Shown piece by piece: positions 7,001-61,834 of a DNA stretch of 64,000 bases (positions within the stretch are counted from its first letter, which is position 1; each line of letters starts with the position of its first letter). The DNA comes from Macrotrachela quadricornifera (Eukaryota; Rotifera; Eurotatoria; Philodinida; Philodinidae): positions 330,968 to 394,967 of the forward strand of contig JAJEKB010021555.1 of NCBI GenBank assembly GCA_022393335.1, in the 5' to 3' direction. The position numbers and the translations under genes are program-made. The notes beneath the pieces are model-generated. The model was not told the DNA's origin, ran no database searches, and saw only the letters and a program-made list of their open reading frames with translations.

Positions 7001-10000
7001 ACAGGTCAGTGACTCAATTCGATTCGATCTGACCTGGCTCGAAGAAATCGCATTTTTGGACTCAGTTTCGTCTGATTTGAGACTTTTCAAGTGTTAATTT
7101 TTTTTGATGATATCTTAAATTATAACGCTTATTTGAACCCTCAAGTTTTAAATTTAGTGTTCTTTGGAGGATTTTTTCATGTTTCGGCATGCGACAGGAG
7201 TCTTAAGACTGTAGCAGCAATTCAGTAAATACAACAATGATCTTATTAAATCCGAGAAAAACCAGAACTACGAACATTACAACTAGAGTTTCATGATGAA
7301 ACTCTTACGAGAATGTGAGACTGAATTAAACAGTTCAAAGGACGCCAATTACCTCAGTACTTTGAGGGACTTGGCAATATCCAGTTAAGTCCTTGCATTT
7401 ACTCGTTAGGAACATGCGCTGATACCCAGCGTGTACATTGTAGAAAAGAGAAAATCATTTTAAAATTATTTGTGCTATTTTGTATTGACCTAAGATCACT
7501 CAAAAACTGATATATACTTTTAACCCAATCTTTTCCCTGACGATTTCTGACACGGATCTATGAAAAATAGACATAATGCTCCTTAAGGTTTTTCACAACA
7601 GAACGAGTGAGGTTTTAGTAGATTAATATCAAAGCAGTTGTATACTTCTAAGATCCTTATATTTCATAATGCTTTTAGGTGAGACAAATTTCAGTGATTT
7701 TTTATACGCGTCTTATGGGATTTGATTAAAGATTTAAAAGATCCTAAATAGATCGTCTATCATATTAAGTAATATATCTTGTAAATTTTTCATGGTAATT
7801 GCAATAGTAGTTGTGACTCAAAATATGTTTACAAAATAGAGCAATTTAGAAACAGTAGAAAACGTGAGTTTTCTCAGAAGAAGATTTCTTCACATCTCAG
7901 TTGCGGATACATAACAAATTTTTATGGGGCCCTCTTTGAAAAAACTCTATAGTTGAGTTTCTTCCACAGGCGATTCTGTCTGATTTTCAAGTTCTCACTA
8001 ACAAGGGAGCCTCTCCAACTGATATATCCTGTTTGAAGTCATATTTTCCCTATAAGTAGGACTCATATCGTAGATAAGAGTCATGAAAGAATTTGTCCTA
8101 TTATGCTATTGTTGTTGAGATAATGTGTCTTTAAGATATTAGAATAACTCATTGCCATGGTCTCTCTCAGGAACACTAAAAAAGTTTATTTTCAAATTTT
8201 GACTTGAAACTTTGTGTAGAGAGAGGTATCAACGAGAGTGGTTTATTGTGAAAATTTCAACTTTGTTGAATGCTCTTAATCGCAAATAAGAACACTCAAT
8301 CTTGCCTATGCAAGTAACATTAGGTTACTATAGCTGTATCCTGGGATAGAAAGAAGGAATAGGTCTAAAACTTTCACAATGAACGATTCTCGTTGGTATC
8401 TCTCTCTATACAAAGTTTCAAGTGAAAATTCGAAAATAAGCTTTTCTAGTGTCTGAGAGAGACCACAGCAGTGAGTTATCCTAATACCTTACCATTTTGA
8501 TCGCCGCTGTCGTTTATAAACATTGAAAATCTCATCTTTGAATTAACTGAAGTAATCATTCATAACGTATGCTTTCTACACACACTTGCATAAAAAAAAG
8601 CGTTAGACAGCTTGAGCTTCAGAATCCACCATTTTATTAAGGCACACTATAGAATCATTCTATAAAAAGCGAATACATTTTCTGCAAAACCGTTTCTTCT
8701 TTCTCTTATGTCGGCGGTCAAAGGGTTAAAGACACATTATCTCCACAACAATAGAATAATGGGACAAATCCTTTTAGGGCTCTTATCTACACTATGAGGC
8801 CTACCTATAGGGGAAATATGAGCTCAAACAGAATGTATCAGTTGGAGAGTTTCCCTCGTAAGTCTTGAGTTTTTTTCGTGTAGCATTACAACTACAGTGC
8901 AATCCAGCATAGAGGAAGTATGTGAATTTCAAAACAGTATCCATTCAGTTCCTTTCGTCTAATATTTGTACGATTAGGCAATGTATCGAGGACCAATTGA
9001 TAATGTACCAGAAATGGAAACTGATCCTTAGCTAAGGTGTACAGCGGCACATCTATGAAAATATTTGTAAATATTCAATTTCTTTCTTTCTCATTTCTTT
9101 GTTTATTGATTTCTTCAATCTTAAGTTGTTTCCATGAAGTGGCTGGAAGGTCACTGAATATAAACATAGGAGGGGATGAAGAAATTAAAGTTTTTGAACC
9201 ATGAAAAGAACGAACTAACGATTGAGTGTTCAATCGGGTAGATGCAAGTATTGAACCGTCACTATCTTGTCAAAATGAAGGATGAAACGAGTGATTAAGC
9301 AAGATTGCTAGAAGCAATGGTTCGCCTTGTTTTCAACCGACTGTTGTTTGACTCTACTATTTTCATCATGCTTTCTCAAGTTATCCACTTTTCAGCAAAA
9401 CTCATTATTAATTGTCTCGTTCGCAAATACGTGTTTCAACTAATTAAAGTCCTTTATAAGACAGCTTTATAGCTACGCTTCATCAAAGACATGCTATAAA
9501 GCATCCTATAGGTGTTATCTAAGTAAAACATCTCATGAGTCCAATCAATTGGGAGCTCATATGGTTTGTTTGTTTAATCGAATTCAAACATGAGATTCGT
9601 TTCAATTAAGAAGGAAAGCATTGGTGATGATAGCAAGAAATCAACTGAACGTTTGAGAATGATTAAAAAGAATTGTAATTGAGATGATAGGTGCTATGTA
9701 GTAGACAGAATTAAACTTTCAGTTACCACTTTCTGAAATGCAGTGTTCTAATGCAAATTGTATAGTAGTTATGTAATAAAATATTCTAATAAAATAGTTT
9801 TTCATAATTACATTGACGTTAAAGTTAATTTGTTTCATAATAGCTCTATGCAACAGATTTCCTACGTGCAAAAACTATTCAACTGGCACATACACGAGAT
9901 CTTTGACAACAGCCGACGTCAATAGAGACGGCAAGGTCGACATTATTGTAACAAACCCTAACGCGAACAACGTTGGTGTTTTTCTTAACACAGGCACCGG

Positions 10001-10883
10001 TACATTCGCTGCTCAAGTGACTTATTCAACAGGTTCTGGTCCAGCTTCTGTAGCAGCAGCCGATGTCAACGGAGATAATAATCTTGACATTATTGTAGCA
10101 AACTTTCAAGTAAGCAACGTTGGTGTTTTCATCAACACAGGTATTGGTGCATTCGCTGCTCAGGTGACTTATTCAACTGGTCTTGGTCCATATTCTGTGG
10201 CAATAGCCGATGTTAATGGAGACGGCAAGCTCGACATTATTGTAGCAAACTCTAATGCAGATAACGTTGGTGTTCTTCTTAACACAGGCACTGGTACATT
10301 CGCTACTCAAGTGACTTATTCAGCAGGCACTTTCCCCCTTTCAGTGGCAACAGCCGATGTCAATGGAGATAATAATCCTGACATTATTGTAGCCAACTAC
10401 AATGGAAACAACATTGGTGTTTTCATCAACACAGGCACGGGTACATTCGCTGCTCAAGTAACTTATTCAAGTGGCCTTGGTCCATTTTCTATAGCAGTAG
10501 CCGATGTCAATGTCGATGGCAAGGTCGACATTATTGTAGCAAACTCTATTGCAAACAACGTTGGTGTTTTCCTTAATACAGGCACTGGTACATTCGCTAC
10601 TCAAGTGACTTATTCAGCAGGCTTAACCCCTATTTCAGTGGCAACAACCAATGTAAATGGAGATAATAATCCTGACATTATTGTAGCTAACTACAATGGA
10701 AACAATGTTGGTGTTTTCATCAACACAGGTAACGGTACATTCACTGCTCAAGTAACTTATTCAACAGGCTCTGGCCCATGGTCTGTATCAGCAGCTGACG
10801 TCAATGTCGATGGCATGGTCGACATTATTGTTACAAACTACAATTCATACACTGTCAGTGTTCTCATAGCTGCTTGTAATTAA
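4049..10883 (+). CDS. Single-pass membrane protein with Thr-rich stalk and seven FG-GAP/VCBS repeats (three exons)
   Basis: Exons 4049-4221, 4276-4634 and 9844-10883, all with GT-AG introns, join in frame to 1572 nt (523 aa). The 54-bp first intron is typical of bdelloids; the second is 5.2 kb and full of repeats. The protein has a cytoplasmic N-terminus of about 78 residues, one membrane segment (about 79-99), a Thr/Ser-rich mucin-like stalk (about 105-178) and an extracellular domain. That domain carries seven repeats of about 48 residues, each with a calcium-loop motif of the DVNGDGKLDII type, predicting a seven-bladed beta-propeller like integrin-alpha FG-GAP. A type II surface protein is inferred; ligand unknown. 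The start ATG at 4049 follows an in-frame TTG. The third exon has no ATG of its own in frame, so it needs upstream exons. The main uncertainty is whether splicing across the long intron really occurs; phase and splice sites agree. Confidence 0.75.
7985..8865. mobile_element. Foldback/MITE element, copy B, split by a nested TTAA element
   Basis: A diverged relative of 3286-3930 with the same arm order: AAGGGAGCCTCTCC...TAGGTAGGACTCAT-type sequence on the left and its complement on the right, ending TTTCCCTCGTAAG. The right arm is interrupted at AATACCTTA by the 240-bp element at 8489-8729 and resumes at AGACACATTATCTC, which lines up with copy A. Confidence 0.7.
8489..8729. mobile_element. piggyBac-type TTAA MITE nested in foldback copy B
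   Basis: The right end reads CGGCGGTCAAAGGG followed by TTAA (8726-8729). The left end reads TTA then CCATTTTGATCGCCG, with one A of the TTAA apparently lost. Copy A of the host element reads AATACCTTAAAAACG uninterrupted at the same point, showing the empty site. Confidence 0.75.
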
Positions 10884-11322: not shown

Positions 11323-13217
11323 GGGCGTGGCCAGTCGACATGGTACCCCAACACTTATTTGTATGGTTTAGCTTTAACTAGTTGTGAGAAAAGCTGATTC
11401 TTTTATCAGTTATAGTCCATGTATAGTGCTGATGATCTATGACTATGTCATATCTATGTTCGAAGAAACAAGAATGATTAAGTATGTCCTAATAGTCATT
11501 GTGTAAAGTGTGCTTCACATCCAGTTTCTTTATATTTTGGTCCTGAATATAATTCGTGCAGGGTAGCATGTTGTCTATTCTATCATATAGTGATGTTTTC
11601 AGTCACATGGTCCTCATTCTAGCTACGATTTTTTTTCTCGTCTTTGTTCGTTCTTCATTTTCTTTAACATAATTCATTCGTAAACAAGTGTTTACTATCT
11701 CTATACCATGTTTTCTCCACAAATTGAATGGATTTGTCCTCAATGTCAATCTGGTACGACTACTCGTAGAAAATATTGTACAAGTTGTCAGTCCATGTTA
11801 ACTTGGACATGTGCTGGTTCAGGTAGATCTGGTTTGTACACTCACTATTATCGTCATCGTGATAACTGTACTTATTGTACACCGGAACTTGAAGAACAAA
11901 AACAACAAAAGTTGAAAGAGAAGCAACAAGAGTTGCAAGCTTTAGATACTAGTAAGTAACATTAGTCCTCTTAGCTTGTGCATGTACCTCTCGCCTCGCT
12001 CATACTTTAGAACAACGACCGTGGTCGGAATGGAGTCGTTCGAATGAGTCGTGTATACAACATACCGGACATGATATTGAACAAGTACAAGAACTGTATT
12101 CTATGTGTGAACAGTCGTTAATAAATTATTGTTCCCATAGGAACAAAGAACATACGAACAACACTATAACACCGTATTTATCTCCTATGAATTTGCTTGC
12201 TGTTACGTTATGGTATTTAAAACATTATCATTCTGAGCGTTATATTGCTACAGAATTAAACTTGGGTCGTTCGACAGTAAATTATTTATTATCAGAGGTT
12301 ATCGATATTTTACATTCCTGTATATATCGAGAATTAATCTCCTTCCCTGCTGATATAGCAACAAGAAGAACGCCACATGGACCTGAACAAAATCATAAAT
12401 TAATAGTTGACTCGACTGTTATTGCAATTCCTGAACCTTACGATAAAGAACAACGAAAAGCATATTATCATTCAAAAAGTCCAACAAATTATGGAATAAA
12501 AATACAAGTAGCTTGTGATTTCCGTCATCGAATAGTACACGTATCCGAATGTTATCGTGGAAGTGTGCATGATATTACAGTTCTCCGCGATTCAGGTTTA
12601 TTAGAACATGTCGAAGACTCTGTACAAATCATCGGTGATAAAGGTTATATAGGTGAAGAATTTGTGGTCACTCCAATAAAGAAACCTCATGGACGTGAAC
12701 TAACGGATGAAGATAAAGATTTCAACCGTGATATTAATAGTGCAAGAGCAGCTATTGAAAATATAAATCAACGTCTCAAAACCTATGCTATTTTGGGTAG
12801 TATTTATAGAGGGACAATTGATGATCTTGATAAAATAACTAAAATCGTACAAGTTGTTGCTGCTCTATGTAATATGAACTTAAGTAAACATCCTATTCGT
12901 AAATAAACATTATATTAAGTTGTGTTTACTGAACAGCTAGTTGATAATAGAACTTTATCACTGGTATTGCACATCGTTTCAGCTATCTTAGCAGGTTCAA
13001 GTGTATGTAGACAAACTGGATGTGAAGCACACTTTACACAATGACTATTAGGACATACTTAATCATTCTTGTTTCTTCGAACATAGATATGACATAGTCA
13101 TAGATCATCAGCACTATACATGGACTATAACTGATAAAAGAATCAGCTTTTCTCACAACTAGTTAAAGCTAAACCATACAAATAAGTGTTGGGGTACCAT
13201 GTCGACTGGCCACGCCC
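11323..13217 (+). mobile_element. IS5-like DNA transposon with perfect 205-bp terminal inverted repeats
   Basis: Left repeat 11323-11527 and right repeat 13013-13217 are reverse complements with no mismatch found by eye, starting GGGCGTGGCCAGTCGACATG. AGAT sits on both sides (11319-11322, 13218-13221), which can be read as a 4-bp target duplication; a TGGGCG terminus with another duplication is possible. The only gene inside is the transposase at 11708-12906. Perfect repeats and an undamaged transposase suggest a recent insertion. An IS5-like element has been described from the bdelloid Adineta vaga; whether this is the same family needs alignment. Confidence 0.9.
11708..12906 (+). CDS. IS5-like DDE transposase with N-terminal zinc-ribbon-like module (two exons)
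   Basis: The first open frame (ATG 11708) has paired cysteines (CPQC, CTSC, later CTYC) and a Lys/Gln/Glu-rich tail. The second continuous frame starts before the ATG at 12103. A 59-bp GT-AG intron at 11952-12010 joins them in frame, giving 1140 nt (379 aa): Cys-rich DNA-binding module at about 1-60, helix-turn-helix (LLAVTLWYLKHYHSERYIAT... to about 175), then a DDE_4-type catalytic domain. Candidate acidic residues are the D of IVDSTV, the D of IGDKGY and the E of AAIENINQRLK. It would cut and insert the surrounding element. An alternative 23-bp intron also restores frame but is implausibly short. A spliced version of an otherwise bacterial-like enzyme implies adaptation to eukaryotic expression. 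Confidence 0.85.
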
Positions 13218-30975: not shown

Positions 30976-33100
30976 CCCTTTGAGGACGGAATTTTTTTAT
31001 AATCGCAAAAACATGTTTCAACCTTTTTATTTTATTTTAACTCAAAATAGCTACATAAAAACCTTATGATAATCAAAAAAACAGTTTTTTTTATCTCTTA
31101 AACAAAATGGCAATTTGCAAGTAAAGCACTCGATGTTGGTTCGAAAATCTGCTTCTTTGTTACTACAATAAATGCATCTTCTTCTTTTTTCTGTCACAGG
31201 CAAATGCATTTCATTGTCACAACTAAGAACAGTTTTTGGTGATGCTTGTTTAGACTTGTTTTCAGAAGGAGGTCTTCCACGACTTATTCATTCACTACCG
31301 GAGCAGAGAGACTTCGCCAGCGAAACCATGTAGTTTAAGTATGTTAACTTATCTTGAGCTAGCTGATTATAACAAATGAATGAATTAAAAATAGATGTAT
31401 TTAGAAAATAAATAAACATTCGCAGCCAGTTCCTTTTAGACTTGCGATCGATATTGTAGCACGAGATTCTTTGGCTAAGTCGATCAACTCCATGTGAAAA
31501 CTGATTATAATCTTTTACTGCTTTTGGACAGTCAATTGTAACACGTTGACCATTTTCCAAACGACGGGAAATCGGAACAACTTCGTTGTCTTTATGATAG
31601 TTTGAAGCCAAAAAAACCTGTTTGGTGTCCATCCATATGAAGACAATGCTGTTCGATGCAATCATTGACATATAATCTCCTCGTTCCATTTTATTTCTCT
31701 TGGCAAAATCCGACTGTATACCTGCTCGATCTGGTCTAATAGTTCCACAGGCTTTTATGTTCTGTAGCTTTAGCTTTTCTAATAATCTGAGAGAAGTGAA
31801 AAAGTTATCGAAATATAGATGTTTCCCTTGGAAGTTATAACCAGAGATAAGATCAAAAACAACGCGTTCGCCTAAATGTGTTTCTTTTCGACTGGTTTCC
31901 TCTTCTCCTAAATAGATTTGATAATTGAATAAATAACCAGTGATTGGATCACATAAACACCAAACTTTATAATCTCTTTTTATTGGTTTTAATGGCAAAT
32001 ATTGCTTGAGGCTTGATCTTCCCTTGAATTTTATCATACTTTCGTCGATTGTACCATAGCGGCCAAAATTATAATTTTTTTGAAAATTTCTCCGTAAAAT
32101 TTCAGTAAAATTCTTAACTTTGTAAATTTTACTGTAGTCTTTAGATTCTCGTCTTGGTTCCAATGTGTTATCTGCCAAATGTAAATTATAAAAAATTTGA
32201 AGAAAGCGATCTCTTGACATGATCGAAGAAAAAATATATTATGGAATACCATATCTTTACTCCAATAAAGTTTCATATTTGGCAAGTTATTGATACCCAT
32301 TAGAATAATCAATCCGAGAAACAATTCGATATCTTTTTTGCTCACATCCTTCCAGTTACTGGTTTTCTTTTGATTGTTACTTCGTTTCTTTCCTTTTTCG
32401 TAAATGTTTGTTTGACCAGTAATCAGATTTAAAACTTCTTCAGTAAAAAACGTTCTGAAGACTGAAACTGGAGTTGGCTCTTTGAGAGAGATTGAGGTAA
32501 AGCTGCCATTTGCGATATTACTTTCATTCATTGAATTCAACTCCTCTTCGTATATACATCCAAATCTTCATCAGAAAGTTCGAGCTCATCTAAGTCATCG
32601 ACTAGTTCATCATAATCGAAATCGAAGTCACTCTCGCTAGTATCATCACTAGCATCTGAATCATAAGACTCGTCGTCGACTTCATAATTTCCAATGAATT
32701 CCATTGGATTAGTTTTAATTGTAAAAACGGTATAAAGAAATAAAGAGTACAAGTTCGAAAGAGAAATGGTATTCTTTGCAAATTCAAGAACAATATAAAT
32801 TTGTCAATGAGAACGGGAATATATATATATATATATATATATACTAAACAGAGAATGAGAATATTCTCGAAAAACAAAAAGACCAGGGGAGAAGAGAGAA
32901 ATTATGACGTCACTGTATCTTAGCAGCAAGAACGAAGGATATTTGAAAAGAATTTATATGAGAGAAGAAAAGTGTGAAATGACACATGCAGTTGTTTATG
33001 ACCTTAATGACCTTACATATTTAATAGTTTAATGTGAACTAAACACTTTTCTCTACTGAAAAATAGGTGGGTGAAAAATCACCCACCCGTCCTCAAAGGG
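30976..33100 (-). mobile_element. piggyBac transposon (2125 bp) with TTAA target duplication
   Basis: TTAA at 30972-30975 and 33101-33104 flank perfect 14-bp inverted repeats CCCTTTGAGGACGG and CCGTCCTCAAAGGG. Beside the right repeat is a subterminal palindrome GGTGGGTG...CACCCACC (33066-33087). The minus-strand transposase gene inside (about 31090-32705) is broken. A (TA)n run lies at about 32819-32842. The flanks on the two sides do not belong to one sequence (see findings). Confidence 0.92.
31090..32705 (-). pseudogene. piggyBac transposase, two frameshifts and one nonsense codon
   Basis: Read on the minus strand: an acidic N-terminus (to about 32537); a -/+1 shift into the frame with FTEEVLNLITGQTN and IELFLGLIILMGI (32540-32250); then a second shift at a T-run near 32235 into the 310-codon catalytic frame (to 31288). 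That frame starts SSIMSRDRFLQIFYNLH and carries the DDD-type positions in TIDESMIKFKGR, YFDNFFTS and FIWMDTK. A TGA at 31288-31290 is followed in the same frame by a Cys-rich tail (CIYCSN...CFTCKLPFC), the usual C-terminal zinc domain of piggyBac. Inactive as it stands. The homopolymer shift could be a sequencing error, but three lesions argue for real decay. Confidence 0.85.
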
Positions 33101-33154
33101 TTAAATAGTGAGCAAGTAACTGAATGAAAAGGAGAAGAAAAAAGAATGTTACTT

Positions 33155-34058
33155 TATTTTTTAGAAGAGCATTGCTGAGATCTTCTGCGCCTTGTGAACT
33201 GATGTGATTCTCGTTTATATTCAGTTTGATGAGTGTCTACTTGAAAAATGAGTGAGCAATAAAATGAGGAAAAGGAAGTAGATGTTACTTGGTTTTGTTT
33301 TAGAACATTAGCAAGATGTTGTATTCCTTGATCATCAATCTTACTGTTTCGAAGGTTCAGTGTGGTGAGCACCTTTGTGAAATAGTGATTCAATGATAGA
33401 ATGAAAATAAGAAGAAAGAAACTTGCCTGATTTTCTTGGACAGCGTTAGTAATAAGCTGCATTTATAGTGGACTAATTTCAGCATAACCAATATCAAGTG
33501 TAGTGAGTGTCTATATGCAATAGTAAAAGAAATGAAAGGATGTCCAATATTACTTTATTATGTTGTAGAACATTGACAAGATTTTGGATTCTGTCTTCAC
33601 CGATTTTATTCTCGTCGAGATATAAAATTGTCAGTGTCTGTATGAAAAAGCAAGGAAATGAAAGAATACCAAAGAAAGAAGATGTAACGTTGTTTTGTTG
33701 TGAAGCATTGGCAAAATATTCTGCTCCTCGTGGGCCAATATTATTGTGAGAAAGATCGAGTTTGGTGAGTGTCTTTATGAAATAGTGTAAATGTGATAAG
33801 ATGAAAAGAAGAATATGAGAAACAATGCAAGATCATAACTTGATTTTCCTCTAGTGCATTGGACAGATGTTGTTCTCCATTGGAACCAATCTCATTGAAG
33901 CCAAGACCCAGTTCAATGAGTATCTATGTAAAACATAGTGTAGAACAGAGTGAGAAGGAGAGAGAAGATATTACTTGATTTCGCCGTAGCGCATTGGCAA
34001 GATGTTGTGCTTTTTGATCATCGATTTCATTGTGTCGGAGATTGAGTTTGGTGAGTGT
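33155..34058 (-). pseudogene. Leucine-rich-repeat gene fragment, one 28-codon repeat per exon, one exon with a stop
   Basis: Seven 84-nt units are separated by short introns starting GTAA/GTTA and ending TAG, for example 34058-33975 and 33923-33840. Each encodes one ribonuclease-inhibitor-type repeat of the form TLTKLNLRHNEIDDQ..QHLANALRRNQ. The fifth unit (about 33511-33430) has an in-frame TAA (SPL*MQ) and an irregular GCAAGT donor. No NACHT or other N-terminal domain was found upstream. The array ends close to the piggyBac right end at 33100, so the 3' part is missing. Such arrays normally form the ligand-sensing end of NLR-like or Ran-GAP-like proteins; which one cannot be told. Confidence 0.75.
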
Positions 34059-35205: not shown

Positions 35206-38200
35206 TTATTTCGAATCCTTGTCACGAATGAAATATTGAGTTTTGCCGACAAGTCCTTGTATTTTAATCCATGCTTTATAGAGTTCATTTTCTAACGTTG
35301 TTGTAAATGGAATTTTAATATCTATATAATAATAACTGACAAGTTTTTTTGATTTTAAATGACCAATTTCATTTGCTAAATAATTAATTATCTTTGATTT
35401 ACTATGAGCATCTATTTTTTCATTTAAAGCAAATTCTGTAAAAAATTTTAATATTTCATAAGTTTTGATAGCACTTTCATTTTTTAATGATTCTAATAAA
35501 TCATCAATAAATTCATTCGAAGATAAATGTATTAGAGGAATTCCAATAACAGAATATTCTTTAACAACATTTTCATCCAATAATGCATTCATAGCATTAA
35601 TCATTACTTTATGATTGGAATGATCCATTGCTGCAAGTAATATAAAAGCATTGCCTCTCGCTGGAAAATACGGATGATGATTCAACATTTTTTCTAAAAG
35701 TTTAATCATTAGAATTTTATTAAACGTTGGAACATTGGTTATTTTTCGATACAAATAATCTTCTTTCTGTACACATGCAGAAATCAAAGATAATAAACAA
35801 TCAGACATTAACAATGAGAACATGGTATCATGAAAACCTTTGAAGCTTGCCATTTTTTCTATCAACCATTTGATCAAATTTTCCATTACAACAATAGTTA
35901 ATGAAATATTATTTAACATATTTAAAACTGTTTGATTGTAATTATTTGCAGCACAAAAGTTACTACGAGTGATTTGTTTGATTTGATCATAATTATTTTG
36001 CGATAGATCTTCAACTTTAATGGTTAATTCGGAAATTATTTTTGATTCAAGAATTGCAAAATATGTTTCATCGGTCATATTGGTTACTGCAAAGATTTGA
36101 TTAATAATAAATTGTATGATATCTACATCTGGAACTGTAAAATAAATTTTTTCTCTAAAATGATTTGTATCAGTAACCGAAAGTATTCTTGCAAAATCAA
36201 TCCAATTATTTTCTGTAATTTGATTACGTTTTGTTAACTTCATTGTTGAGTGCAATAATTCTTCCATACACGATGGATGTATTGATGATTCTGCTGCTCG
36301 TAGAATTGAATTCCAAGTATGATTATTGGTAAATCCTATCCGACTGAGAAAAAATATTTTTCTTCCATTAGCAAGGTTATTCTCTTGAAAGTTTTTTATA
36401 GTTTCAAATACTTGAGGATCATCCCAATGTAAATCCAAGAAAAAAGTGCTTAAATATGCTTGAACTCTAGGTAGAGAATTCATTGTCGATAAACTTTGAA
36501 GAACTTTCATTAATGTTTTTTCTCCAAGCACTGAAATTCTCTTGTTAGGTTTGCTTGTATCTCGTTCTGGATGTTGAAAAACTCGTTGAGTTCGATATCT
36601 CATTTGATCATTATCGTTTTTTAATAAGTCGAGAAGATGATCAACAGCTAATTCGAAGATATGTCTAGCTTCTGTTAATAAAAGAGCAGCTAATTTCTTA
36701 ATTTGATAAGTAGAATTTTCAGTAAACCATCTTTGAACAGTTGGCAAGACTTCATTCGATGGTTTGATAATATAAGGAAAGAGAATTGAAATAACATCTT
36801 CTTTTCCTTGATGAACTAATTCATCGATAACTATTGCGGCCACTGGTGTTAAAAATAATTCTGTATTTAAACCAATTTTTAAGATCTTTTCAATATTTGA
36901 TTGATTATTGATATCGTGAAAGAGATTGATCCATAACTGATCTATGCTTTCGTTTTTGCCTATTGCTAATTTGATATCATTTAATTGAGCAAATAGTAGA
37001 AATAAAGACTGAAGTTCAGTGTGATTGGAAAGACTATCAAGTTTTGTAGTGGATAATATCCGTCCGTAAGAAGAACGAATGAAATATCGAGATGTTGTTC
37101 TTTCGAGATTTTCTACAATTTGATTCAATTTCATTTCAAGATCACTATAAATGCCGATGAATGATCTTAATTTGATAATTAGTTTTATTTTCTCATTATC
37201 TTCTTTCATAATATTGAGGGTTTCTACAGCAATTGTTAAGTATTTTCTACGAAATTCTCTGGAACCATAAAATGATAATCTTATTGAGGCAATTACACGA
37301 TTGTAAAAATCTTTGATATTATGATAAGTTAATATTAATTCGTCGAGTACTTGCTGGATAAAGCATATCTCTTGTGTATTTTTATAATGAAAAATATGAA
37401 AAATCTTTTCTAAAACTTGAAATTTTAAAACTGCATCGGAAATATTTTTTGTGAATGTAAATGATTCAATCAGAAGTTCTTGACATTTTTCATCATAAAA
37501 CTCAGCTAATTGATATAATGCTCTTGATTTATAATATGGATTATACATGGATTGAATCTTCTTTAGTAAAAATTCTTTGACATTTGTTTCTGCAACTAAT
37601 TCAGGTAGTAGTTGTTCATAGTTTGTCATCATATTTAAACGTTCTGACTGAAATCCAAATTGTAATAGTATAGCTAGTGGAATTAATTCTGAATTTTTAT
37701 TGAAATATCCTTCGTTAATAAAGATATTTAAAATGATTTGAATACCGCTTGCTAGATTTGTATTAAGATTCTCTAGACAATTAAAAAATGCAATTGGTAG
37801 ATCGTCGTCATCATTTAACTTGAAAGTAAATATATCGGTAACCCATGGATATGCTCGCACTGGTCTGTAAATCTGAACAGTATCACTTATTTTTAGAAAT
37901 GATTTGATAATTTGATCACTTTTACTCGATTGGATACATTCGTCTACTATCTCATTAATAGAATATGAAACAGTATCATAAGCACCAGTCAATTTAAAGG
38001 CAATATATTCTGAATACAGATCATACTTATTTTCTACATTATCCATAACTTCTGCTAACATCTTCGTATCAATTGGTAAACCTCCACCCTGGGCTACTAA
38101 AGAGAAATATATTCGACAGTAATCAGTAAATTGAAGATCGTATTGCAATTGACTTGTTTTCATACTATTATAAATTGTAAGTAAATAATTGGCAATATAT

Positions 38201-41200
38201 GAAGAACATCTGGCGATGGGATCTTTTAGGACAAAGATTAATTGTTCGATTCTATTCTTGAAACTCTTTAAAAATATTTGTCCTTCTCGTTTGATAACAT
38301 CTATCAAATCGAAATCTTCCAAAATGATTAAACCCATATACACTTCTGTTTTATCATTAATACTTAATTCTTCATCATTTAATTTTTGTCTTAATTCTTC
38401 AATTAATTTTGTTGTAGATTCTTTTTTAGTCAATAATTCCAAGATTCGACTTGTTAAGAATGATTCTTTGTAGATTTCATTCGCTTTAAATATCGGCATT
38501 TTGGTCCATTGTTCTTTCGGAACTTTGGTATCAAGATATACAGCCATACTATAAGCTGGATCATTTCTATCCCAAACTTCTTGATAATAAAATGTAAATG
38601 GTTTTCTTTGATTGTCACTTAATTGAAGAAATTGAGCGATTTCATAGTAATCTGATATATTTGATGGTATGTTATAATATTTATATCCACCATAAAGAAT
38701 GGTGATTAAACGTAACCAATCACTATTTTGAGTAATATATTTGACCATTTGAGGATTTTGACAGAGGACTTTTTTGAGTTTAAGTTGTGTTAATACTGCT
38801 TCATCGGTAACTTTAGTCGAATAGAATCGTAAGATTGAATCGATAGGCCAATTCCAAGTCGATGAATCATTATGTAAATTTTTTAAGCATATTTCATGAA
38901 ATTTCAGATTGTACCATTTTAATCGATAGAGAATATGTGCACATGGAGCAATATATTCTCTATAATTCATTTTTCTAGTAAACCAACCGGTTATTGTATG
39001 ATTAGATCGTCTTCCTAACTTCAAAAAGTATGCATGAATTAATTCTTGATGTTTTTGTAGTCTTGAAAACCCAGACACATTGTTATAATCTAATAAAAGC
39101 ATATCTGCTAATATTTGTATCAATACAGATTCCAGATGTATCGAAGAAAACGATATATCATCTAAGGAATCGATGATGACAAATGGTACTAAACGTGTAG
39201 AAAATAGCGTATTAACTGATGTCTGCTCATCCGTTAATAATCTCATAAGAACATACTTGAATAATCGATTCTCTTCAGGTAATTTACTTAATATTCCCAA
39301 TGTCATACCAAGAGGAACTCTCCAATTTGGAATATCAATTTTACTTTTGATATTTTCCACAATCATCTCTTTTGGTCGTTCGATTCCATTGAAATAGATA
39401 ATACTTTTCGCTGCAAGATATTCTTGAAAAGTACGATGGATAAATCGAAAACTATCATATCCAAATTCATTTAATACACCTGCTTGATATTTGAATATGT
39501 CCACTAGTTCAAAAATAGAATCATTAATATGAGATAATGGTAGTTGATATTCCCTCAGACATTTTTCGATTATTTCTCTTAAAACATTTTCTGATAATCC
39601 TTCGACTTTACTATGTAGAAATCCGGCAATTTCTTGTAAAATTGACCAGAACATTGTAGTAGTTAATCCGAGATCATCAATAGAAAGATGAACTAATCGT
39701 TCAATCATTTTCTCGATTGCTATTTCATATAAATCAATTCTTTTCTCTGGTAATTTATCATCTAATTGATTGTAAATAGCTGCAATAACACTTGCTAATT
39801 GAGGATTAATTGCTAATCGAAAAATATCTTTATTTTGTGTAATATCATCATACAATTGATCAGTATCATATTTTTTTCTTTTAATCGAAGCCTGGCTAAT
39901 ACATTCCATATATGATCGACAAAATAATTTCAATGCATCATTCGACATATTTTCGATGGTTAATCTTGGAATCGAAAAATTAATATCTTCAAAATAATTG
40001 CCTTCAATTCGACTAGTAATAATAAATCGATTGCCTCGATTAGGAAATTTCGTTCCATGAATTTCCTTCTGTTCATAAATCGAATAAGAAAGTTTGTTAG
40101 TATGTATATCATAATCAATTCCTCGTTCTAGTAAAGCATTGATTTCTTTCATTAAATCCGATCGATCAACATGAGCAGGAACTTCATCTAATCCTTCGAA
40201 AATAATCAATACATTACCTTGTATTAATGACGAAAGTACCAAAGATGAAAGATCTTTTTTTTCATCTAAAGTGAAATATGTTGAATTAAAAGTTGGATTC
40301 TCATAAATAAATTGAAGTAAACTTTTTTTCTGTTCATTTTGTGTTTGTTTCATTTGATCAACATATTTCCAAATTGGAATGAGTATTGGTAGTTTTTCCG
40401 TGCAATCATCAGATAACATATTTTTCTCACATAAACATTGCTTAGCTATATTCATGACTAACCATTTAGATATCGTAGTTTTTCCTGAACCTGGATGACC
40501 TAAGATAATGAAATGTTTGAATTCATTATAAGCTTGTTGAATTTGATATTGTTTGGCTTCTTGAAACTGACTTTTTTCGAGAATATCATGTTTTAACTGA
40601 TTAAATTTATTTTTGATCGTAGTCGATTCCTGTTCAGTAAAGATGTTTCGATTACTTAATAAAATATTTAACCATTGATCCATCACAAAATCTCGATAGA
40701 TCGTTTCAGGATTATAAACATGTTTTTCTATAATTGCTCGATTTAATTTTTCTCGTTCCTGATCAGTTAAAAATGCATAAGATAATGATTTACGTTTAAA
40801 TTCTTCATTCATTTCGATTGATTTCATAGCTTTAGTTGATGGATGTGTTGGATCAAATTTTAATTCGACATAAATACTTTCCAATGGTAGAGTAATATTT
40901 GTATTCGAATATGCGAAGATTGAGACATATCCATATTCTTTAATTACGTAGTGAAGATATTTCTTGCGAATAGTTGCTTTATTATCTGTAAGGGATGAAT
41001 TTTCGCGGATTATTGAAGTAAAAGATTGGAGACTTTTGATAAAGGAAAGTAAATCTTCGAAAGTATTACCATATGGAATTTCTCGAATGTTCTCGAGAAA
41101 TGGTGCATCAGAAATTCGATGAAATGTTTGGTTTCTATTGAATCTGACAAGTTTATATATCGAAGAAACTTTATCATTGTTTTTGTGAAATATCCATTTG

Positions 41201-41784
41201 AGTAAATTAGAAAAACTTGCATCAGACATTCCTACTTCGTATCCAATGAATAACAATGTTTTTTTTTCAACTAAAGCTTGCAATTTTGATCGAGCAAATT
41301 CATTGGCAAGAAGTTGGTCATAGCCGTTATGAGTAAAAATTACACTATCTGACTCTTGGAAATGTCCGTAGAGATGAAGAATATAGTTTTTCAAATTTTC
41401 ATAGGATTCATTCATATGGTTATTATAATATGTATTCCAAGTCAGTGGTTTCTTTCTTAATATGTCTTCGAGAAATGAATCATAATTTGTTGTTAGAATA
41501 GGACAACCTAATTCATCAATTGTTTGAATCAATTCTGTTTTTTTCGCTGTTAGTTTTCCTCTTCTTTCTCCTGACCATAGTGTAAAATGATCAGTTGTGA
41601 ATGAGTCATTATCTATCGATTCTAACTGTTGACATTGCTGAAAACCGTCTTTTAATAATTCTCTCCAATAATCAACTTCTTCTTCCTCACCACTTCTTGT
41701 ATAAAAAGAGATACTTCCACCAATAAATATTACTGCTTGATTAAAAGCAATATCAATTTTGATTTTTTGTATTTCATCAGTCAT
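35206..41784 (-). CDS. SIR2-NACHT STAND-type protein, 2192 aa, intronless
   Basis: One uninterrupted frame from ATG 41784 to TAA 35206. Residues about 1-250 resemble the SIR2_2/SIR2-like NADase fold: GGSIS (22-26, replacing GAGxS), TTNYD (98-102, with candidate catalytic Asn100), LHLYGH (136-141, candidate His141) and LLFIGYEVGMSD (177-188). A linker leads to a NACHT NTPase: P-loop GHPGSGKT (429-436), Walker B VLIIFEGLDE (525-534), sensor RFIITSR (586-592) and the winged-helix signature FRFIHRTFQEYLAA (779-792). Residues about 800-2192 are predicted helical without TPR or LRR consensus visible, the position of the sensor in STAND proteins. By family knowledge, SIR2-NACHT/STAND proteins bind a trigger, oligomerise and deplete NAD+ (bacterial antiphage systems; fungal and invertebrate NLR-like proteins). 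Immune function here is inferred. No partner gene adjoins it. Lack of introns in 6.6 kb fits horizontal acquisition or retroposition. Confidence 0.88.
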   Translation of the reverse strand: MTDEIQKIKIDIAFNQAVIFIGGSISFYTRSGEEEEVDYWRELLKDGFQQCQQLESIDNDSFTTDHFTLWSGERRGKLTAKKTELIQTIDELGCPILTTNYDSFLEDILRKKPLTWNTYYNNHMNESYENLKNYILHLYGHFQESDSVIFTHNGYDQLLANEFARSKLQALVEKKTLLFIGYEVGMSDASFSNLLKWIFHKNNDKVSSIYKLVRFNRNQTFHRISDAPFLENIREIPYGNTFEDLLSFIKSLQSFTSIIRENSSLTDNKATIRKKYLHYVIKEYGYVSIFAYSNTNITLPLESIYVELKFDPTHPSTKAMKSIEMNEEFKRKSLSYAFLTDQEREKLNRAIIEKHVYNPETIYRDFVMDQWLNILLSNRNIFTEQESTTIKNKFNQLKHDILEKSQFQEAKQYQIQQAYNEFKHFIILGHPGSGKTTISKWLVMNIAKQCLCEKNMLSDDCTEKLPILIPIWKYVDQMKQTQNEQKKSLLQFIYENPTFNSTYFTLDEKKDLSSLVLSSLIQGNVLIIFEGLDEVPAHVDRSDLMKEINALLERGIDYDIHTNKLSYSIYEQKEIHGTKFPNRGNRFIITSRIEGNYFEDINFSIPRLTIENMSNDALKLFCRSYMECISQASIKRKKYDTDQLYDDITQNKDIFRLAINPQLASVIAAIYNQLDDKLPEKRIDLYEIAIEKMIERLVHLSIDDLGLTTTMFWSILQEIAGFLHSKVEGLSENVLREIIEKCLREYQLPLSHINDSIFELVDIFKYQAGVLNEFGYDSFRFIHRTFQEYLAAKSIIYFNGIERPKEMIVENIKSKIDIPNWRVPLGMTLGILSKLPEENRLFKYVLMRLLTDEQTSVNTLFSTRLVPFVIIDSLDDISFSSIHLESVLIQILADMLLLDYNNVSGFSRLQKHQELIHAYFLKLGRRSNHTITGWFTRKMNYREYIAPCAHILYRLKWYNLKFHEICLKNLHNDSSTWNWPIDSILRFYSTKVTDEAVLTQLKLKKVLCQNPQMVKYITQNSDWLRLITILYGGYKYYNIPSNISDYYEIAQFLQLSDNQRKPFTFYYQEVWDRNDPAYSMAVYLDTKVPKEQWTKMPIFKANEIYKESFLTSRILELLTKKESTTKLIEELRQKLNDEELSINDKTEVYMGLIILEDFDLIDVIKREGQIFLKSFKNRIEQLIFVLKDPIARCSSYIANYLLTIYNSMKTSQLQYDLQFTDYCRIYFSLVAQGGGLPIDTKMLAEVMDNVENKYDLYSEYIAFKLTGAYDTVSYSINEIVDECIQSSKSDQIIKSFLKISDTVQIYRPVRAYPWVTDIFTFKLNDDDDLPIAFFNCLENLNTNLASGIQIILNIFINEGYFNKNSELIPLAILLQFGFQSERLNMMTNYEQLLPELVAETNVKEFLLKKIQSMYNPYYKSRALYQLAEFYDEKCQELLIESFTFTKNISDAVLKFQVLEKIFHIFHYKNTQEICFIQQVLDELILTYHNIKDFYNRVIASIRLSFYGSREFRRKYLTIAVETLNIMKEDNEKIKLIIKLRSFIGIYSDLEMKLNQIVENLERTTSRYFIRSSYGRILSTTKLDSLSNHTELQSLFLLFAQLNDIKLAIGKNESIDQLWINLFHDINNQSNIEKILKIGLNTELFLTPVAAIVIDELVHQGKEDVISILFPYIIKPSNEVLPTVQRWFTENSTYQIKKLAALLLTEARHIFELAVDHLLDLLKNDNDQMRYRTQRVFQHPERDTSKPNKRISVLGEKTLMKVLQSLSTMNSLPRVQAYLSTFFLDLHWDDPQVFETIKNFQENNLANGRKIFFLSRIGFTNNHTWNSILRAAESSIHPSCMEELLHSTMKLTKRNQITENNWIDFARILSVTDTNHFREKIYFTVPDVDIIQFIINQIFAVTNMTDETYFAILESKIISELTIKVEDLSQNNYDQIKQITRSNFCAANNYNQTVLNMLNNISLTIVVMENLIKWLIEKMASFKGFHDTMFSLLMSDCLLSLISACVQKEDYLYRKITNVPTFNKILMIKLLEKMLNHHPYFPARGNAFILLAAMDHSNHKVMINAMNALLDENVVKEYSVIGIPLIHLSSNEFIDDLLESLKNESAIKTYEILKFFTEFALNEKIDAHSKSKIINYLANEIGHLKSKKLVSYYYIDIKIPFTTTLENELYKAWIKIQGLVGKTQYFIRDKDSK

Positions 41785-42099
41785 TTTTTTGTCATGTTTA
41801 GTTTGCTCAATCTAAAAAGAAAATGAAATATTTCGATAACGTGCCTCCGTTTATTAACTTTGTGTCAGAATGCGGCCTTTATTCGATAAAAAATGAATCA
41901 TAACTGACAACTTTCTTGTTAAAAAGAACGACAACATTTTTCTTCTTCCTCCTTCACCTTTATTGCGAAAGAAATTATTTTTTTCCAACAAAAAAAGCAG
42001 ATAGAGTGCCATGGGACATACAGATACGACATATAAAGTCAGAAAAAAATTGATTAAAATAAGTATATGACAAAAAAAAGCAAAACAACATCTATGTAA

Positions 42100-42350
42100 T
42101 TATTCATCACAACTTGATCTCAATACAACTCTTATCTGATTCCTGTCCATGTCAATAAAAACAAGATCATCTTTTGACTCTCGATTTAAATCAACGACGT
42201 TTAATGAATGAGAACATGAGTCATTAGTGCTTGTATTCATATTGAACGACAATGGATAAAAAAGTCCAATACCGATATTTTGTCCGATGAATACGTTTAA
42301 AATTCCATTACATGTTAAAACAGCTAAATCATCGATCGAGTCATTATTAG
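42100..42350 (-). pseudogene. FG-GAP/VCBS C-terminal fragment, interrupted by a MITE
   Basis: Minus-strand frame ending TAA (42100-42102) encodes DDLAVLTCNG..NVFIGQN and ends VVDLNRESKDDLVFIDMDRN, like FG-GAP repeats with the Ca-loop DLNRESKDD. Just upstream (minus) a MITE begins at about 42349. Beyond its other end (42655-42710) the minus strand reads FDEGNNLSMIVFEAG, which fits as the preceding part. Too short to be a full propeller. Confidence 0.55.
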
Positions 42351-42648
42351 TGGCGGCGCCAGACTACTAGCGCCCCTCTTGTTTTGGGGAGGGGGGGGGG
42401 GGGCAGTGGGAGGTGACGCCACCTATATGCACATCATGTTATGAATAATACACAGTGTCAATAGGGTAGCGGTACCGTCTATTGCTCTTTCTAGAACAAG
42501 GGATAAGCAGGTGTTCTATTTTCACCCCTAGTGACTCTAATAGTCTCATGCATTCTTGAAAATTTGGTGTGTGTATAGGTGGCGCCACCTCCCATTGCCC
42601 CCCCCCCCCCAAACAAGAGGGGCGCTAATAGTTTGGCGCTGCCACTAA
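42349..42648. mobile_element. MITE with GC-rich inverted repeats and G/C homopolymer runs
   Basis: Left end AGTGGCGGCGCCAGACTACT and right end reading the complement of AGTGGCAGCGCCAAACTATT. Arms of about 85 bp include GCGCCCCTCTTGTTT and a run of 13 or more G on the left matched by a similar C run on the right. Non-coding. Target duplication unclear (TA or TTA). A strong GC island in AT-rich surroundings. Confidence 0.75.
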
Positions 42649-60751: not shown

Positions 60752-61834
60752 ATGCATCAAGCTTGGATCACTGTATGCATTACAATTGTTATTCTAGTAG
60801 CTCATAGCTATGCTGAGGACTTACATGTCAGTATAGTTCCGATGCGCGTACATTTTGGTGAAAAACAAAATGTAGAAGCCATTCTGATTTACAAGAATAC
60901 AGGATCTGATACTGTTATGATTTGCGACTGGTACTTACCCAAAGAGGAACTATTTGACCCGCTGTTCACAGTTACTCGAAATGGTAACAGTGTTAAATAC
61001 GTTGGTCCGAGGGTCAAACGAAGACCACCCACACCTGAAAACATGATTTCTGTAGGGCCCGGTAAGAATGTGAGCACTGTTGTCCAGCTGTCTTCGGTAT
61101 ATAATATGAATGAGACCGGCAATTATGTTGTTCAATTTAAAGCTTATGTTGATCCTACGCTGCATACATCTGCTCGTAAAAAGCGTACTGAAAATACATT
61201 ATCAATTGACGCTAACGAAATCGTTTTGAAGTCTAATTCAGTCGAATTATTTGTCATAGGTCGTCACAATGCTCTCACTGATACAAGTAATCAAGATAAT
61301 TCTCAAGTAAAGGCGGCCACATATAATTATAACGGTTGTGCAGCAACGGAAAAAAATTCAATTGTTGCTGGAGTTAATTCGGCAGCAAGTTATTCTGCAA
61401 GTACTGTAGAATATTTGAATACAATGGACTCACAGGGTACACCACGCTATACTACTTGGTTTGGTGACTACTCATCGGAGAACATGCAAACATTAAAATC
61501 ACATTTTGACAGTATTAATCAAGTATTGACAAACAAGCACATGTTATTCGACTGTACATGTCAACAAAAGAACTTATATGCTTACGTTTATCCTAATCAA
61601 CCTTATAAGATATATTTGTGTCCTGTATTTTGGTCATCAGTAGTGACGGGTGAGGACTCAATGGGTGGTACGTTAATTCATGAAATATCGCACTTTTCAA
61701 TAGTGGCTGATACTGACGATCATGTATATGGTCAGCCTAAATGTAAGACTTTGGCCAAAACTGATCCCATTAAGGCACTCAATAATGCAGAAAATCATCA
61801 ATATTTTACAGAGAACGAACCGGCATTAGATTAA
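60752..61834 (+). CDS. Secreted M35-family (aspzincin) metalloendopeptidase
   Basis: A single 360-codon exon. Residues 1-21 are a signal peptide (VCITIVILVAHSYA then EDL). Residues about 24-170 form a beta-sandwich-like propeptide or N-terminal domain, with a dibasic ARKKR stretch at 141-145 inside it. Residues about 190-360 are the catalytic domain of peptidyl-Lys/deuterolysin type: YNYNGCAATE opening, YTTWFG at about 233-238, Cys pairs around 268-290, zinc ligands H310 and H314 with catalytic E311 in HEISH, and a downstream DTDDHVYG giving the aspzincin Asp (D323, nine residues after H314 as in the family). The C-terminal ALNNAENHQYF is conserved in M35 relatives. It would be secreted and cut proteins extracellularly. 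Relatives are mainly fungal and bacterial; with no introns, horizontal origin is plausible but not shown. Confidence 0.88.
   Translation: MHQAWITVCITIVILVAHSYAEDLHVSIVPMRVHFGEKQNVEAILIYKNTGSDTVMICDWYLPKEELFDPLFTVTRNGNSVKYVGPRVKRRPPTPENMISVGPGKNVSTVVQLSSVYNMNETGNYVVQFKAYVDPTLHTSARKKRTENTLSIDANEIVLKSNSVELFVIGRHNALTDTSNQDNSQVKAATYNYNGCAATEKNSIVAGVNSAASYSASTVEYLNTMDSQGTPRYTTWFGDYSSENMQTLKSHFDSINQVLTNKHMLFDCTCQQKNLYAYVYPNQPYKIYLCPVFWSSVVTGEDSMGGTLIHEISHFSIVADTDDHVYGQPKCKTLAKTDPIKALNNAENHQYFTENEPALD

Follow-up and report, generated by a model that had tools for sequence, protein, structure and literature searches.

The 64,000-nucleotide stretch of the rotifer Macrotrachela quadricornifera analysed here (contig JAJEKB010021555.1, positions 330,968 to 394,967; hereafter the window) carries on its minus strand, at 35206..41784, an intact open reading frame (ORF) of 2192 codons, whose product, P0001, combines a SIR2-like domain, a NACHT NTPase and a giant alpha-solenoid in a single polypeptide. 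The unbroken ATG frame reported in an initial annotation of this DNA is exact at these coordinates and runs on the minus strand, while the plus strand translates there into a sequence full of stops and each of the other five frames contains 146-227 stops. Given the base composition of the window, 2192 open codons would arise at random with a chance of about 10^-78, and the GC content of the ORF is 0.19 at third codon positions compared with 0.39 at position 1, AT-rich third positions that indicate a coding-like composition. Moreover, both the ATG and the end of P0001 match those of full-length relatives. The gene had also been described as intronless, which holds for the coding frame, but reading of the sequence revealed a possible 3' splice acceptor (41812..41830, minus strand), a pyrimidine-rich tract followed by AG. 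This acceptor, ttctttttag, is rated good and ends 27 bases upstream of the ATG, where it may belong to an intron in the 5' untranslated region or to trans-splicing.

Profile searches and predicted folds bear out the combination of SIR2 and NACHT domains, and all motifs quoted in the initial annotation are present. The SIR2-like domain comprises residues 1-260 (41005..41784; this and all following features of the gene are on the minus strand). It matches Pfam SIR2_2 (6e-19, 68.9 bits, cut-off 24.5), a profile built from 8 members of the family finds FAM118B (6e-25), and its predicted Rossmann-type SIR2 fold matches ThsA, DSR2, KomC and FAM118B. Within it lie GGSIS (from residue 22), TTNYD (residues 98-102, 41479..41493), LHLYGHF (residues 136-142, 41359..41379, with LYGH from 138) and FIGYEVGMSD (residues 179-188, 41221..41250). 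The NACHT NTPase with its helical and winged-helix parts spans residues 411-850 (39235..40554), and Walker A, Walker B, the winged-helix motif and the NACHT fold are all present: GHPGSGKTT (residues 429-437, 40474..40500), whose GHPGSGKT is the P-loop of the earlier description, LIIFEGLDE (residues 526-534, 40183..40209), FIITSR (from residue 587) and FIHRTFQEYLAA (residues 781-792, 39409..39444), which we take to be the winged-helix His motif. The predicted NACHT and winged-helix fold matches NOD2, NLRP3 and NLRC4. Among Pfam families, NPHP3_N passes its cut-off (5e-6, 27.3 bits against 24.8), whereas NACHT (PF05729; 9e-4, 19.6 bits against 26.7) and nSTAND3 (3e-5) fall below theirs, and no leucine-rich repeat (LRR) family matches P0001 at E up to 1. 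The remainder, residues 851-2185 (35230..39234), is assigned as a HEAT-like alpha-solenoid and presumed sensor from structure modelling and homology to other NACHT proteins. Residues 1000-2192 are predicted as a solenoid with confidence (predicted local distance difference test 86.4, predicted template modelling score 0.86), and residues 851-999 lie outside both structure models. The view that this 1400-residue region matches nothing has to be given up, as it has many relatives in addition to a confident prediction.

P0001 belongs to a family of bdelloid rotifers, in agreement with the animal host proposed earlier. Of 5648 candidates in a protein search, 79 had an E value of 0.001 or below, among them 44 family members (P0002-P0045), of which 26 carry a species label (22 Rotaria and 4 Adineta). 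These relatives, deposited under names such as unnamed protein product, NACHT domain-containing, Nephrocystin 3-like and Protein FAM118B, share the three-part architecture, at full length in the complete ones, and are 56-70% identical to P0001 over residues 1-900. The nearest among the matches has 70% identity over 57% of residues 1-900, which implies that the bdelloid of the window is not sampled in the database searched, and P0001 adjoins Rotaria sequences in our tree (support 0.69). Because P0032 lies on an 18.1 Mb contig of Adineta vaga and P0012 on a 1.29 Mb contig of Rotaria sp. Silwood2, family copies are integrated rather than derived from stray bacterial contigs. Shorter members exist, some of them marked partial, and long relatives with open frames at 37-70% identity to P0001 suggest purifying selection. 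Among the matches listed, no title or abstract in the open-licence literature describes a bdelloid SIR2-NACHT-solenoid family, and the terms NACHT, NOD-like and SIR2 are absent from the main text of a paper on bdelloid horizontal gene transfer (PMC11258130).

The relationship to solved SIR2 structures allowed us to place the residues of the NAD site, with numbering from the printed chains (directly for KomC H146 and via a 20-residue offset for FAM118B). TTNYD of P0001, with Asn100, aligns with TTNFD of FAM118B and TTNYD of KomC, and L-H-L-Y-G aligns with L-H-I-H-G and I-K-F-H-G, respectively, such that Asn100, Tyr139 and Asp188 correspond to N163, H206 and D255 of FAM118B. Asn100 is thus confirmed as a pocket residue. 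The column of the catalytic His (FAM118B H206, KomC H146), however, is occupied by Tyr139; His141, formerly taken for the pocket His, was mis-registered, although it does recur where the His at 139 is lost. In addition, P0001 has GGS in place of the GAG-like loop of other members and lacks about 34 SIR2 residues near position 62, a segment that most Rotaria and Adineta relatives keep but that is nearly all gone in P0030, P0034 and P0035 and partly in P0037. In view of Tyr139 in the His column, the GGS loop and the partial deletion of the domain, NAD depletion by P0001, as the initial annotation had envisaged, appears doubtful. In work on the human proteins, H206A or N163A, or the equivalent changes in FAM118A, were reported to block the elevated NAD processing by mixed FAM118A and FAM118B (PMC12700824).

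Column counts over the 40 SIR2-bearing members, with four rows lacking a complete SIR2 excluded, place these changes in the context of the family. Asn100, the Walker A Lys, GLDE and HRTFQEYL of the winged-helix motif are kept in 40/40 and Asp188 in 39/40, whereas the catalytic His is kept in only half of the rows (20/40) and is otherwise replaced by Tyr (16), Phe (3) or Gln (1). One paralog with the HGY form, P0011, retains GAGVS in its loop as well. Mapping the state of this position onto the tree takes no fewer than 8 changes, whereas 500 shuffles gave a mean of 13.6 and a minimum of 9; it is therefore inherited in part, and the 20 rows cannot be counted as 20 events. His141 occurs in 11 of the 20 members without His139 and in 2 of the 20 with it (Fisher p=0.0057), or in 7/15 and 2/17 once the alignment is thinned to 32 rows at 80% identity (p=0.049), and nine of the 40 have His at neither place. 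LYGH is also found in P0051, a SIR2-NACHT protein that is very divergent and bacterial-like in composition. Because such thinning removes relatedness only crudely, we treat the pattern as a lead only; it would fit either a His that has moved or a recurrent inactive form. The median ratio of SIR2 to NACHT divergence is 2.14 for pairs without the His, 2.05 for mixed pairs and 1.83 for pairs that both have it.

The solenoid is common to bacterial NACHT proteins, where it is combined with different front ends. Among the matches listed, at least three named bacteria carry such proteins, fronted by caspase, trypsin-like or SIR2 domains. For example, the complete plasmid pANACY.03 of Anabaena cylindrica PCC 7122 encodes a caspase-NACHT-solenoid protein, WP_015217806.1 (caspase domain 1e-14), which aligns to residues 220-2236 of P0044 with 90% coverage and 23% identity (3e-79), and a metagenome-assembled genome (MAG) of Pseudonocardiales encodes the trypsin-like type (2165 aa). 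The complete chromosome of Minicystis rosea carries a SIR2-NACHT-solenoid gene (locus L002, 7001-12579) in two overlapping frames with the pocket motifs TTQID and HLRG, features which together indicate that SIR2 has degenerated in a bacterium too. In these giant-solenoid proteins, of which two of three have effectors other than SIR2, NACHT and solenoid are homologous to those of the bdelloid family, at 23-24% identity to P0044. P0046 and P0047, which match stretches of P0001 up to residues 2149 and 2178, respectively, group with the named bacterial proteins in the tree, as do P0049 and P0050, the two of 12 members scanned that have a TIR front. Further versions are represented by P0092 (TIR) and P0093 (caspase), both outside the tree, and by P0051 (SIR2). 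A Verrucomicrobia MAG encodes a SIR2-NACHT protein of 1332 aa with ordinary HEAT repeats, in which TTNYD and HLHG are intact. Such a pairing of a single sensor scaffold with NADase or protease fronts that can be exchanged is typical of STAND conflict systems, according to two accounts of them (PMC8195603, PMC10907252). Separately, we observed a SIR2 protein on a Rhodococcus plasmid (locus L082, 5968-9174, 1068 aa) that is flanked by transposases and shows 30% identity to the SIR2 part of P0044.

In a midpoint-rooted tree of 46 sequences, calculated from 1929 columns covering linker, NACHT and solenoid, Rotaria, Adineta and P0040-P0044 are separated from the bacterial group by a long branch (1.44 substitutions per site, support 1.000), and P0044 adjoins this branch. 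The FYMINK/GARP ratio of P0044 is 1.53, compared with 2.32-3.50 for the named rotifer proteins measured and 0.25-1.21 for most of the other side, where P0082 (2.14) is an exception. No named animals besides Rotaria and Adineta appear among the matches listed, from protein searches limited by candidate length and number, and the family profiles match animal NOD-like receptor (NLR) sequences weakly (best 0.0026 over 25 positions). An origin outside the ordinary animal NLRs, as suggested at the outset, is upheld by the solenoid common to NACHT proteins of bacteria. Given the range of phyla and effectors on the bacterial side, and with Rotaria and Adineta as the only animals named among these matches, transfer from bacteria to bdelloids is the likely, though not proven, direction.

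P0001 resembles several known systems in part. It has the same layout as the bacterial NLR-related bNACHT/Avs antiphage proteins, namely an effector, a STAND NTPase and a C-terminal sensor (as outlined in PMC10907252), while the sole PADLOC antiphage model to match it is mad8 (0.0059; E up to 1), the Avs models are unmatched, and NCBIfam EruA reaches 1e-5, with 23.9 bits far below its cut-off of 1000. The SIR2 fold is that of FAM118A/B, ThsA, DSR2 and KomC; the pocket Asn is common to FAM118B and KomC and the Asp to FAM118B, but both proteins retain the catalytic His where P0001 has Tyr139. To our knowledge, FAM118 proteins have neither a NACHT nor a solenoid, and the solved FAM118 chain has 371 residues. 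P0001 shares 22% identity with FAM118 in the structural alignment (phmmer 3e-9), which places it outside the FAM118 clade, whose members are at least 41% identical to the human proteins in the account given in the FAM118 paper (PMC12700824). NOD2, NLRP3 and NLRC4 have the NACHT and winged-helix fold in common with P0001, which differs from them in its SIR2 front and solenoid and in the absence of a matched LRR.

Taken together, we believe, with a probability of roughly 60%, that P0001 is an intracellular NLR-type receptor of bacterial origin that bdelloids acquired, multiplied and kept intact, the direction of transfer being the one we infer above. It would descend from a NACHT protein of bacteria in which a giant alpha-solenoid sensor was coupled to an exchangeable effector at the N terminus (SIR2 in this case). 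Uptake by the bdelloid lineage may have preceded the split of Adineta and Rotaria, with expansion following there. By analogy with bacterial NACHT/Avs proteins and NLRs, we propose that a ligand, foreign or stress-related, binds to the solenoid, that the receptor opens and oligomerises upon ATP exchange in its NACHT, and that the SIR2 domains, once clustered, could act on NAD or NAD-derived signals; likewise, its architecture points to an immune role for P0001. With its catalytic His replaced, P0001 itself would most likely cleave little NAD and act in a regulatory or partner role, or perform altered chemistry. The FAM118 study reports that filament assembly is required for the activity of ThsA, Avs5 and FAM118 and that FAM118A and FAM118B process NAD together (PMC12700824), and a copy without the His could therefore be a partner in mixed assemblies. 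However, the same study weighs against a partner role of this kind, since FAM118 activity required the His of both partners. A bolder idea, which we regard as tentative and rather improbable, is that the NAD site of this domesticated bacterial NLR family has switched repeatedly between an NAD-cleaving HGY form and a YGH or His-less form acting as partner, decoy or enzyme of altered chemistry, giving mixed active and inactive assemblies like sensor-helper NLR pairs.

Other explanations account for parts of these observations. P0001 might be an active NAD-depleting receptor, in which His141 or Tyr139 replaces the catalytic His and NAD is cleaved upon assembly, and the retained Asn100 and Asp188, the enrichment of His141 among members without His139 (p=0.006) and the LYGH of the divergent P0051 would agree with this. 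We nevertheless consider it unlikely, because Tyr stands in the column of FAM118B H206 and KomC H146, the GAG loop has become GGS, about 34 residues are absent from the domain, H206A stopped NAD processing by mixed FAM118B and FAM118A in the experiments reported in that study (PMC12700824), and the enrichment shrinks to p=0.049 once thinned, with nine of 40 members lacking His at either place. The several lesions could instead mean that P0001 is a decaying duplicate whose SIR2 part is losing function as the gene turns into a pseudogene, and it fits this explanation that divergence is faster in SIR2 than in NACHT, by a slightly larger factor for pairs without the His, and that shorter members exist, though some are marked partial. 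This appears somewhat less likely still, given 2192 codons without stop or frameshift, intact NACHT and winged-helix motifs, a lost His that is always Tyr, Phe or Gln, and an Asn lost in none of the 40 rows.

Finally, the receptor might not come from bacteria at all but be an ordinary animal NLR that gained SIR2 by shuffling, a notion to which the fold match to NOD2, NLRP3 and NLRC4 and an LRR fragment 1.4 kb downstream of the gene lend themselves. The solenoid common to NACHT proteins of named bacteria, the weak profile matches to animal NLRs and the restriction of named animals to Rotaria and Adineta among the matches listed make this highly improbable. The LRR fragments themselves (33154-33923, minus strand, 1.3-2 kb downstream; LRR_6 2e-9 in 33494-33832) are taken to represent a separate gene, because relatives have the same C-terminal end as the SIR2-NACHT protein; the pieces beside the LRR_6 match look alike by eye and matched no family.

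Elsewhere, the window encodes piggyBac-type and other DDE transposase, FG-GAP, 2H-phosphodiesterase, acetyl-CoA transporter, beta-helix and M35 peptidase domains. The piggyBac-type transposase (31288-32540, minus strand; DDE_Tnp_1_7 4e-66 and 5e-15) lies in two overlapping frames, which suggests a frameshift or an intron, and a DDE_Tnp_4 ORF is found at 12103-12906 on the plus strand (2e-33). An FG-GAP repeat ORF occupies 9813-10883 on the plus strand (FG-GAP_3 2e-71, six stretches), and a weak FG-GAP match below cut-off (42100-42363, minus strand, 8e-4) ends some 320 bases before the start codon of the SIR2-NACHT gene. The Aspzincin M35 metallo-endopeptidase at 60752-61834 (plus strand, 9e-44) is possibly another acquired gene.

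If a bacterial origin is correct, a bacterial NLR-type receptor would have been domesticated in its entirety, together with its sensor, and multiplied in an animal lineage, which is more than the borrowing of an effector domain alone. Adineta can be kept in the laboratory, and bacterial-type NAD-based immunity would become open to study within animal cells. Moreover, the His-bearing and His-less SIR2 paralogs would then provide a natural series on the role of an inactive SIR2 in an NLR.

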